NCBI RefSeq assembly: GCF_002847445.1
Contig: NZ_CP025430.1
Coordinates: 3,654,501 to 3,718,500, forward strand
Direction: 5' to 3'
Origin: Paracoccus zhejiangensis
Lineage (GTDB): Bacteria; Pseudomonadota; Alphaproteobacteria; Rhodobacterales; Rhodobacteraceae
DNA length: 64,000 bases
How positions within the stretch are numbered: position 1 is the stretch's first letter; every line of letters begins with the position of its first letter. The notes under the pieces are model-generated. The model saw nothing but the letters and a program-made list of their open reading frames with translations, had not been told where the DNA came from and searched no databases. Both the position numbers and the translations under genes were made by a program. Below are positions 26,963-29,707 of this stretch, piece by piece.

Positions 26963-27217
26963 TCAACACTTACCCTTGAAACTCCACACATCCTTCTTGC
27001 GGCTCAGTTTGAACGTCGCCGGTTCCGCCCCGCCGCAGACCGAGGTTGCGGCCTCCTGCTTCAGCTCGGCGCCGGTCCATTCCGGTCCGGCCTTGCCGCT
27101 AAACTTGCCGCCGCCGTCATTTTCAAGCTGCAATTCGTTCGAGGCGGGGGCATCGCCGGTACAGGCGGCCAGCGTGGCGAGGAGGGTGAGGCAGGGCAGG
27201 GCGGCAAAGAGGCGCAT
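26963..27217 (-). CDS. Small lipoprotein
   Basis: An 84-residue protein with a lipoprotein signal: MRLFAALPCLTLLATLAAC, with LAAC as lipobox and C19 as lipidated residue. The 65-residue mature part has two cysteines (TSVCGG and the C-terminal KGKC) and a basic end KLSRKKDVWSFKGKC. Small periplasmic lipoproteins of this look occur next to inhibitor-like or metal-related genes, but I do not recognise this one. It lies downstream of the DUF692 gene on the same strand, 90 bases away, and may or may not share its transcript. Confidence 0.7.
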   Translation of the reverse strand: MRLFAALPCLTLLATLAACTGDAPASNELQLENDGGGKFSGKAGPEWTGAELKQEAATSVCGGAEPATFKLSRKKDVWSFKGKC

Positions 27218-27307
27218 CGGGGGAGCTTTCGGGCTGGTGAAACAGCGCGGGTGTCGCCGCAGGGTGCCGTCCTGTCAATGGCTTGCGTGTGCTTGTTCAG
27301 AGTGACG

Positions 27308-28750
27308 TTACAGCGCCGCCGCGTCGGAAGTGAAGTCGGCCAGAGTGAAGCCATCGGGCAAGAGTTCAACCTCCCATTCCGGGCCGTCAGGCAGGTTCGC
27401 GGGCAGGCGCGCGACCGCCAGCGCCTCGAACAATGTCGTCGGGTCACCGGGAAAGCGGACGAGTTGTGCCTTGCCCTGCCGCACGATCCTGAGGAAGGCC
27501 AGATCATAGCCGAGAAGCGCCAGCAGCCACGGATCATCCTCGCCCTCGCCGATCAGGTAATCGGCAAAGCTCTCGGCCTCGAGCGGGGTGAAAAGGCGCG
27601 GATCGCGGGCGGTGTGGAAGCGGCCCAGCAGCGTCTCTGTGCTGTTGCCGTCTCGCAAGAGCAGATAGCGCAGCGTGCGCGGCATGGCACGGACCAGAAT
27701 CGAGCCGCGAAAGCTGCGGGCGAGCTTGGCGTAAAGCCGCAGCGCCTTGGCATCATCGGGCCAGGGATGCTGCTCGGGATCGGCCTGCCAGACGGCGCGG
27801 GTCGCGCCGTCTTCCCAGTCAGCGGAAGCGGGGCCGGGGGTGGCTGGCCGGGGAACAAGCGCGGCGGGCGGCGCGTCCGAGCGGCTGATGCCGGCGCGGT
27901 CCCAGATCTCGCGCAACTCGTTCACCGTATCGTCCAGCTCCTCGGGCGCCATGCGCTCGAGGAAGGTATCGTAGATCTCGAAATTCAGCGCGCCGAGATT
28001 GGGCAGGCTTTGCACCACCTCGCGCGAGAAGGCAGCGAGGTCGACCGGCATCTCGCCGGAATGACTGTCCAGCCAGTAGCCGTCCATCTCCTGCCCGCCG
28101 GCCAGGTGAATTTCCCAGACCCGGTCCAGCGGGATCTGCGCCAGAAAATCCTGCATCCGGATGCGGCCGTTCCGCTCGTTGCAGTAGAGGTTGTGCAGGT
28201 CCAAGAGGATGCCGCAGCCGGTTTCCTCGCAGATGCGCGCGACGAATTCACCATCGGGCATCTCGAACGCCTTGCGGGCGAAATAGGCGACGCCGGTTTC
28301 GATGGCGACGGGGCGGCCCACACCTCCGGCAAAGGCGCGGATGTTCCGGGCGGCGATCTGGACGCCCTCATCGGTCTGCAGCGGCGGCAGCAGGAAGCCC
28401 GCCGCCTTGTGCGGGGTGCCGGCGATCGACAGGTGCTCGCTGACCCAGGGGCTGTCCAGTCGCTCGGCGACGCGGCGCAGCAGAGACAGTTGCGCCGGAT
28501 GTGGGCGGCGGGTGCCACCGATCGGCATGCCGACCGAATGGACCAGCTTTTTCTGCGGCAGTTCGGCAAGCATGTCGAAGGCCGGGGTGAATTCGTAGAA
28601 GGGCCCGTCGAACGGGTCATCGGCCAGCCAAAGCGTCTGCGGCTCGATCTCCAGCACATCCAGTGCGGTGGGACGGCGCTGCAGGAAGGGCTTCAGCGCC
28701 GTCGAGAAGATCATGCCGATTCCGAGCTTGGGGGCCTGGAATGCAGCCAT
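27308..28750 (-). CDS. DUF692/MNIO-type protein fused to a C-terminal partner-like domain
   Basis: A 480-residue protein. Residues 1-290 match the DUF692 TIM-barrel family, multinuclear non-heme iron oxidases that modify peptides (MbnB, TglH, BufB). Likely ligands are H71 in HSVG, E105-H106 in SEHL, E151 in IETG, D184 in LLDLHN, H215 in EIHLAG, D228 and H230 in LDSH, and E258 in FEIYD. It is diverged: HLAGG replaces the usual HLAGH and DLHN replaces DVNN. Residues about 311-480 resemble the separate partner proteins (MbnC, TglI, DUF2063). ATG at 28750 follows the upstream stop after one base; TTG at 28759 is the alternative. Confidence 0.8.
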   Translation of the reverse strand: MAAFQAPKLGIGMIFSTALKPFLQRRPTALDVLEIEPQTLWLADDPFDGPFYEFTPAFDMLAELPQKKLVHSVGMPIGGTRRPHPAQLSLLRRVAERLDSPWVSEHLSIAGTPHKAAGFLLPPLQTDEGVQIAARNIRAFAGGVGRPVAIETGVAYFARKAFEMPDGEFVARICEETGCGILLDLHNLYCNERNGRIRMQDFLAQIPLDRVWEIHLAGGQEMDGYWLDSHSGEMPVDLAAFSREVVQSLPNLGALNFEIYDTFLERMAPEELDDTVNELREIWDRAGISRSDAPPAALVPRPATPGPASADWEDGATRAVWQADPEQHPWPDDAKALRLYAKLARSFRGSILVRAMPRTLRYLLLRDGNSTETLLGRFHTARDPRLFTPLEAESFADYLIGEGEDDPWLLALLGYDLAFLRIVRQGKAQLVRFPGDPTTLFEALAVARLPANLPDGPEWEVELLPDGFTLADFTSDAAAL

Positions 28751-28751
28751 G

Positions 28752-29174
28752 TCAGCCAATGGTCATCACCTGTTCGCGAAGGTTCATCCGGGCGTCGAGC
28801 ACCAGCGAACGTTCGAGGTTGAAGCGCCAGTCGCAGCCGGTGGCACAGGCGACATGGCCGGTCAGTTCGGCCAGCTTGTCGATGGCGGCAAAGACCGTGT
28901 CGATATTGCCGGCCGCATCGGGGTTGAGGCCGATATCCAGGGTCTTGCCCGACGCCAGTCCGCGCCGTCCCGGCAGGGACACCGGATGCTCGCTCACATC
29001 CTTTTCAAAGATGAAGTCGCGCTGCAGTTCGAACATGATGTCGTGACCCGAGCAGCAGGCCTGGCAGCCCAGATGGCCCAGCACGCTGCCGACCGCCTTT
29101 TTCAGCCGGTCGATATCCGAGGCGACGCTGGCCGGCAGCGAGACCCGGACGGGGTTGGTGGAGATGTCCTTCAT
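28752..29174 (-). CDS. Cysteine-cluster protein upstream of DUF692 gene; candidate peptide substrate
   Basis: A 140-residue soluble protein without signal peptide. It has two cysteine clusters: GCQACCSGHD (C37, C40, C41, H44) and VACATGCDW (C110, C114). The two halves look related in order: a helix, a cysteine cluster, then a basic or acidic strand (MFELQRDF, WRFNLERS). It ends one base before the DUF692 start, so the two are translationally coupled. It could be the substrate of that enzyme, an iron or copper carrier for it, or an unrelated metal protein. I know no named family for it. Confidence 0.65.
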   Translation of the reverse strand: MKDISTNPVRVSLPASVASDIDRLKKAVGSVLGHLGCQACCSGHDIMFELQRDFIFEKDVSEHPVSLPGRRGLASGKTLDIGLNPDAAGNIDTVFAAIDKLAELTGHVACATGCDWRFNLERSLVLDARMNLREQVMTIG

Positions 29175-29196
29175 AATCGATCCCTACTCCAGAGAT

Positions 29197-29208
29197 ATTC
29201 GCGCGAAT
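29197..29208. promoter_or_regulatory. Perfect palindrome upstream of the DUF692 operon
   Basis: ATTCGCGCGAAT is a perfect 12-base palindrome, 23 bases upstream of the start of the cysteine-cluster gene. A further CTGCGCGAATT half follows at once (29209-29219). Its place between a ribosome site and an AT-rich promoter stretch fits an operator. The regulator is unknown and not encoded nearby. Confidence 0.45.
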
Positions 29209-29218
29209 CTGCGCGAAT

Positions 29219-29300
29219 TAATAAATAACATAATTATTTTTAAATTGAGATTTATTTTAAATATGCGAAATTATTTAAATTGAAGCTCATATATTAAAAT
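29219..29300. other. AT-rich island in the DUF692 operon upstream region
   Basis: By my count about 10 of 82 bases are G or C, against roughly two thirds in the rest of the window. It contains two direct repeats, TAATTATTTTTAAATTGA (29231-29248) and AAATTATTTAAATTGA (29268-29283). It is non-coding and sits between the mutarotase end and the cysteine-cluster gene. It may be a strong promoter with UP elements, a nucleoid-protein site, or a scar of transferred DNA. Confidence 0.7.
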
Positions 29301-29377
29301 CAGCGTTGTTTCGGCTTTAGCCGTGTGAGTGGAGGTCGCTGACGAAGCCATCGGTTCCGCGCTGGATCCGCGATCCG

Positions 29378-29707
29378 CTAGTCATGATGAAACACCTCGT
29401 CCATCATCGCCCACCACTCGCCGTCCGTGCGGCTTGCCAGCGGCTCCTGGCAGGGATCGGTCAGGCGCCACCAGTCCTGCGTTACCGGATCGGCGGCGAT
29501 GGCGGCCATGTCGGCGGCGAAATCGGTGCCGTGGTATTCCCATGTGCCAAAGAGGATATTCTCGGGCTCGCGCAGGAAGATGGTGTAGTTGCGGATGTTC
29601 GATGCCGAGATCCGCGCAAGGACGGCGGGCCAGGCCGCCGCGTGGAGCGCCTTGTACTCGGCCACCTTCCCGGGCTTCAGCCCGATCATCATGCCCATGC
29701 GTTGCAT
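29378..29707 (-). CDS. L-fucose/L-rhamnose mutarotase (COG3254, RhaM-like)
   Basis: A 109-residue ferredoxin-like sugar mutarotase. It has MGLKPG-like start (MMIGLKPGKVAEYKALHAAAWPAV), SNIRNYTIFLRE and WWRLTDPCQEPL, the hallmark of the RhaM/DUF718 family. It interconverts pyranose anomers so that the dehydrogenase sees the right one. It is the last gene of the fucose-type operon, 53 bases after the SDR. The longer frame up to 29809 overlaps that gene and has no good start. Sugar specificity comes from context only. Confidence 0.88.
   Translation of the reverse strand: MQRMGMMIGLKPGKVAEYKALHAAAWPAVLARISASNIRNYTIFLREPENILFGTWEYHGTDFAADMAAIAADPVTQDWWRLTDPCQEPLASRTDGEWWAMMDEVFHHD

Follow-up and report, generated by a model that had tools for sequence, protein, structure and literature searches.

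The window analysed here, a stretch of 64,000 nucleotides of the Paracoccus zhejiangensis genome, contains a pair of adjacent genes on the minus strand. The first one (28752..29174) encodes a cysteine protein of 140 amino acids, named CysP in this work, which from its ORF and homologues is a putative MNIO substrate of a two-unit, adjamnio-IV-like form. A single base separates its stop codon from the ATG (28750) of the second gene (27308..28750), whose product of 480 amino acids joins an MNIO barrel (residues 1-290; 27881..28750) to a partner-like C-terminal domain (residues 309-465; 27356..27826). The longest ORF of the enzyme (27308-28759, 483 amino acids) begins at an overlapping TTG at 28759. 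A previous sequence-only reading had reported a 140-residue protein with C37-C40-C41-H44 and C110-C114 that ends one base before the enzyme, and the ORFs were as it described. This fused enzyme was the single MNIO of the host genome (4.64 Mb, 5 contigs), in which no DUF2063 partner gene was found.

Upstream of CysP, the region between window positions 29175 and 29320 appeared AT-rich by eye. Four promoter-like matches were obtained over 27000-29450 vs. 0.4 expected, all of them inside 29233-29297. A perfect inverted repeat (ATTCGCGC-N6-GCGCGAAT; 29197..29218) was located 22 bp before the ATG of CysP and, read on the minus strand as ATTCGCGC-AGATTC-GCGCGAAT, had no other exact match anywhere in the 4.64 Mb genome. 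Both arms were altered jointly (ATTTGCGC/GCGCAAAT) in the uncultured Paracoccus that carries the nearest named CysP relative (L003, 96%). The repeat is possibly a private operator or a 5' hairpin; no motif common to the upstream regions of the CysP loci was seen by eye.

The barrel was recognised by PF05114 (MbnB_TglH_ChrH; E = 1.9e-40, 139 bits vs. a cut-off of 25), which covered this part of the protein only, and it extended to around residue 290 in the AlphaFold2 model of the enzyme (mean pLDDT 93.7, pTM 0.91), in agreement with the DUF692 barrel of residues 1-290 previously assigned. The nine iron ligands of TglH were present in the window enzyme (H71, H106, E151, D184, N187, H215, D228, H230, and E258) and were invariant in 75 of 75 sequences, the window included, whose identity to the window enzyme was 33-85% (alignment A3, composed of the window enzyme, 66 of 120 listed proteins from 1443 matches, and 8 loci). 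The divergence at ligand positions that had been deduced from HLAGG and DLHN was a misreading, since both are the residues of TglH itself. From these ligands, we infer that the barrel binds a multinuclear iron cluster. The position of the catalytic Asn73, which TglH needs, is occupied by Val73 in the window enzyme, and TglH-type chemistry (beta-carbon excision) was set aside because this Asn is missing. None of the NCBIfam equivalog cut-offs was reached (score/cut-off in bits: BufB 122/310, HvfB 86/360, ApyH 81/400, ChrH 55/600, and MbnB 25/325). In Paracoccus amoyensis (L004:8416-9872) the fused MNIO was split over two frames at about residue 192, by either a disruption or a sequencing error; this locus, together with L020 and L021, does not form part of alignment A2 (22 rows).

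The C-terminal domain consisted, in the same model, of a bundle of helices at residues 309-425 and a short beta-alpha-beta piece at residues 429-463. No profile, those of HvfC and DUF2063 included, matched this domain of the window protein. Among the 75 sequences, 20 of which were scanned singly (all HvfC and DUF2063 hits included), five were matched by HvfC (NCBIfam) at E <= 1, with values from 1.3e-5 to 0.0074 (residues 338-439 in L015, L016, L018, P0131, and P0142), and four by DUF2063 (Pfam), with values from 2.2e-4 to 0.12 and a unique one below 0.001 (residues 333-409 in L016, L018, P0142, and P0174). Both profiles were placed alike in the best relative, L018 (1.3e-5 for HvfC and 2.2e-4 for DUF2063). 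All these matches fell under the curated cut-offs (in L018, 21.9 vs. 27.2 bits for DUF2063 and 25.2 vs. 142 bits for HvfC), and unrelated families scored E values of 0.004-0.2 in the same scans, for instance PRK06761 (0.0044) in the same region of P0131. Aligned by hhalign with 12 proteins whose genes directly follow those of ordinary MNIOs at the family loci (targets chosen by position; 12 of 26 loci supplied one), the domain was collinear over 131 columns, with a probability of 6.1% and a P of 0.0061 vs. 0.13 and 0.25 for the controls, a likeness that is suggestive only.

According to the available text of PMC12452194 (Antoine et al. 2025), PME-type 2 partners are helical, distant relatives of DUF2063, and carry a full or truncated RRE piece. 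The order of elements in the AlphaFold2 model, helix-rich and then a short piece, was compatible with that description, with weak profile hits coming from relatives. In our judgement, the C-terminal domain is probably a partner of this kind, with a DUF2063-like helical part and a truncated RRE piece. The fusion of enzyme and partner claimed from the sequence alone was supported by weak hits in a few relatives, whose positions agreed; the window protein itself had none. The same text reports that precursors without signal peptide correlate with type 2 partners, and the combination of a CysP apparently without signal peptide with a type 2-like domain agrees with that correlation.

The five Cys of CysP are located in CQACCSGHD (residues 37-45; 29040..29066), in which CQACC is its CxxCC form, and in HVACATGCD (residues 107-115; 28830..28856). 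Comparison with Pfam, NCBIfam, PADLOC, and PHROGs gave nothing at E <= 1 that could be credited as a family hit, PHROGs displaying chance-level matches only (E 0.09-0.24) and PADLOC none. Of 100 candidates, 75 were homologues at E <= 1e-3 (44 of the 75 in alignment A1). An HMM of the repeated unit, built from 15 single-unit relatives of 71-92 amino acids, found two copies in 90 and one copy in 20 of the 110 distinct CysP sequences (115 with five repeats), second-unit matches going down to E 0.14. On the window CysP it found copies at 1.3e-21 (unit A, residues 9-53; 29016..29150) and at 7.9e-7 (unit B, a diverged copy, residues 79-126; 28797..28940), and the protein is therefore a duplicated unit. 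CysP is predicted to be folded, its AlphaFold2 model (pLDDT 77.6, a middling value) presenting twice the order beta-alpha-loop-beta, with the motifs in the loops. As had been noted before, nothing resembling a signal peptide was found in the window CysP by a simple hydropathy scan, which is a heuristic (first 35 residues low; best 12-residue value 0.83); values above 1.6 occurred in 3 of 115 sequences.

Conservation differed between the two types of unit. The consensus of single-unit proteins was LGCxACCSG[FH]D, and GCxxCCSG occurred one or more times in 108 of the 110 distinct proteins, the exceptions being P0080 and P0090, two single-unit proteins without CxxCC. First units mostly retained the motif whereas most second units had no CxxCC, and HxxCATGCD appeared in 68 of 90 second units. 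Residues are swapped between unit types, the first Cys being replaced by His and the His by Cys (C37/H44 vs. H107/C114). In C-x-[ST]-G the Cys (C40 and C110) was kept in 198 of 200 units, with the exceptions of P0061 (motif lost) and P0073 (truncated), and it would thus be the first choice as the site of modification. In a tree of units, the window's group had its N units apart from its C units, which agrees with one duplication there; the flavobacterial, Anaerolineales, and cyanobacterial units were not resolved. The first unit of the cyanobacterial protein of L024 (L024:7170-7658) had HxxCATGCN, a site type that the window's group has in the second one; the L024 unit lay on a separate branch of this poorly resolved tree, and its sequence may reflect a convergent origin of the second site type.

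CysP loci were retrieved from 84,980 species genomes by means of two conserved-motif patterns, blind to the enzyme; relatives without these patterns are missed by such a procedure, and several records are metagenome bins. The 260 pattern hits yielded 24 confirmed loci (L003-L026), on which the pairing counts rest, P proteins being compared as sequences only. By record title, hosts belonged to several phyla and included Rhodobacteraceae, another alphaproteobacterium, Pseudomonadales, Chromatiales, Lysobacterales, Flavobacteriaceae, Cyclobacteriaceae, Anaerolineales, Glutamicibacter, and Synechococcaceae. The next gene after CysP encoded an MNIO that also matched the window C-terminal domain at 24 of 24 loci (weakest match 6.9e-10, in L021). 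With the longest ORFs, the gap between both genes was from -14 to 9 bp in 22 of the 24 loci; the ORF finder gave 290 bp for L021 and 141 bp for L022, and the whole-genome match placed the enzyme start of L021 beside CysP. In the 22 genomes behind these loci (L006 and L012 left out), a whole-genome search placed CysP next to the sole fused MNIO in all 22, with one CysP locus each (a tandem pair in L023) and one fused MNIO each (two frames in L004); other MNIOs of these genomes scored at most 129.2 bits. By the sequence-only reading, homologues of the cysteine protein lying mostly away from a DUF692 gene would refute it; all loci found had the fused DUF692 enzyme as neighbour, and the check did not go against it. 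Seventy-five homologues together with so strict a linkage make the pair more than a chance association.

Within the host family, the same 4 of 394 genomes had both CysP and the fused MNIO (>680 bits), and 272 others presented ordinary MNIOs only (best 121 bits), with up to 10 CysP and 4 enzyme candidates scored per genome; this count is not independent from that of the 24 loci because the four positives are the window genome and the strains of L008, L010, and L011. Among 398 genomes drawn from the phylum, CysP was found in the host genome only. A tblastn search of 72,556 plasmid records with CysP gave no match, and 0 of 40 pattern hits in viral contigs were confirmed as relatives. The cassette formed by CysP and its MNIO is rare and scattered. 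When the genes within 8 kb or less were clustered, the most widely shared other family appeared in 4 of the 24 loci (L010-L013, all Rhodobacteraceae); one gene family was common to L011, L016, and L025, at 2-3.5 kb from the pair. No conserved protease or exporter was found beside the pair in the 24 loci over the same distance, and for this reason the pair is not a typical natural-product cluster.

The CysP family very likely corresponds to adjamnio-IV, with which it was compared by the description in Table 2 of PMC12452194: 10 sequences of 119-146 amino acids, with 5-6 Cys and CxxCC, without signal peptide, organised as 'Adjamnio-IV - MNIO' with no separate partner gene listed, and regarded there as a likely new type of precursor. 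The window CysP coincides in length, number of Cys, CxxCC, and lack of a signal peptide (by the hydropathy heuristic), and its gene is likewise directly before an MNIO and has no separate partner gene. The single-unit relatives, in contrast, lie outside the 119-146 range, and the available text on adjamnio-IV makes no mention of a fused partner, a duplication, or single-unit forms. In the literature searched, the term adjamnio was met only in that paper, and no natural MNIO-DUF2063 fusion was found in print, a provisional result as most subscription papers and all supplements fall outside that search. The suggestion of a new MNIO branch holds in part only, CysP fitting the adjamnio-IV row; the sequence-only reading was right in its main call, one of its supporting arguments was wrong, and the family was not wholly unreported.

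Known systems resemble the window pair in different respects. HvfB/HvfC and BufB/BufC (oxazolin, bufferins; 5-thiooxazole) also combine an MNIO with a DUF2063-type partner acting on Cys, and HvfC is the protein weakly matched by the C-terminal domain of a few relatives; in those systems the partner is separate, whereas the window system is a natural fusion and its precursor has no signal peptide. HvfA contains EGKCG repeats, according to the available text of PMC13419390 (a 2026 preprint), and CysP has none. TglI, the partner of TglH in the 3-thiaglutamate system of Pseudomonas syringae, is a separate protein too, unlike the fused partner-like domain of the window enzyme, and the parts of the literature available describe TglA as modified at an added C-terminal Cys, the Cys residues of CysP being internal. 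The same preprint treats MovX, with a fused RRE, and ChrH as exceptions to the separate partner; as in the window enzyme, a single chain carries the MNIO and a further domain that may replace the partner (PMC13419390, PMC12452194, in the text available). This domain is a C-terminal RRE/winged helix in MovX and a domain of unknown function in ChrH, and apparently a helical DUF2063-like part in the window enzyme.

Taken together, these results make it probable, on sequence grounds, that the pair is a minimal cytoplasmic two-gene cassette whose fused MNIO acts by oxidising a conserved Cys of CysP. The arguments for it are the strict pairing, the absence of a third gene, the invariant ligands, the C-terminal hits, the lack of a DUF2063 gene in the host genome, the near-constant Cys in C-x-[ST]-G, and the higher activity, relative to the co-expressed pair, of an artificial fusion of HvfB and HvfC built in the same order as the window enzyme (PMC13419390, in its accessible part). 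The barrel would hold the iron cluster, and the fused DUF2063/HvfC-like domain would do the job of the separate partner, that is, recognising and holding CysP and setting the active redox state of the cluster, by analogy with HvfC, which HvfB needs to reach its active mixed-valent di-iron state (PMC13419390, same part). Recognition would probably involve the conserved N-terminal strand of CysP (VRVSLPASVA). The target of oxidation with O2 would be the loop Cys of C-x-[ST]-G (C40 here), which belongs to the CxxCCSG[HF]D unit, and an oxidised group, for example a heterocycle, would be formed from this Cys. The modified CysP, a small protein that would be folded and bind metal, would remain inside the cell, perhaps for metal or redox handling in the cytoplasm. 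Since CxxCC was mostly replaced by HxxCATGCD in the second units of the two-unit CysPs of the window's group, these units may contribute further ligands for a metal and not be targets of modification. Against this cassette count the partner-domain hits, which lie below the cut-offs, come from few relatives, and are equalled by chance families, together with the change of Asn73 to Val, the lack of CxxCC in P0080 and P0090, and the absence of a conserved protease or exporter. MNIO enzymes normally take a flexible peptide, and a CysP predicted to be folded is awkward in this respect.

That folding, the likeness of the C/H sites to metal binding, the swap of the first Cys and the His between unit types, and the missing protease would all suit a CysP that is never modified and serves as a small metal chaperone, an iron or redox donor, or an extra MNIO subunit, while the MNIO acts on another peptide or small molecule. 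We regard this as unlikely; any other gene is common to 4 of the 24 loci at most, so that a third-party substrate would have to be encoded elsewhere. Moreover, known MNIO precursors mostly contain Cys and have their genes directly ahead of the MNIO gene, as CysP does, and MNIOs mostly oxidise Cys of such a precursor with the help of a partner protein (PMC12452194, in the text available). A decaying relic of a bufferin-like system, descended from a secreted copper buffer and installing no modification in this lineage now, could account for the loss of CxxCC in most second units and for the split enzyme of P. amoyensis, and is very improbable in view of the nine ligands invariant in 75 sequences at 33-85% identity to the window, the motif mostly kept in first units and intact in single-unit forms of other groups, and the closeness of the two genes, which lie from -14 to 9 bp apart at 22 of the 24 loci. 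That the genes are unrelated and linked by chance or for regulation alone, which would be compatible with position alone tying them, is hardly credible: the pair was found at 24 of 24 loci and in 22 of 22 genomes, and its hosts belong to several phyla and differ in the flanking genes.

If the fused MNIO does act on CysP with a built-in partner, the pair would offer an unusually simple in vitro test, with one enzyme and one small substrate at a fixed 1:1 stoichiometry, and a fusion like the one engineered for HvfB and HvfC with the aim of high activity (PMC13419390, in its accessible part) seems to occur naturally here. The very different host bacteria and the lack of a conserved exporter suggest that MNIO chemistry also works inside the cell, beyond secreted copper buffers. 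More tentatively, as a possibility that we doubt more than we favour, a single-chain enzyme with an absorbed partner could build a permanent Cys-derived cofactor or metal site in a folded cytoplasmic two-site protein, not a released natural product, in which the CxxCCSG[HF]D unit would be modified and the HxxCATGCD unit, derived from the former, would stay unmodified and supply ligands.

The forms of CysP provide a natural series for asking which cysteine gets modified: single-unit genes occurred in L014, L019, L021, and L025, tandem genes in L023, and fused doubles in the remaining loci. At L023:7989-8563, two adjacent single-unit CysP genes precede one fused MNIO, an arrangement that is possibly intermediate between the single-unit and the fused two-unit forms.
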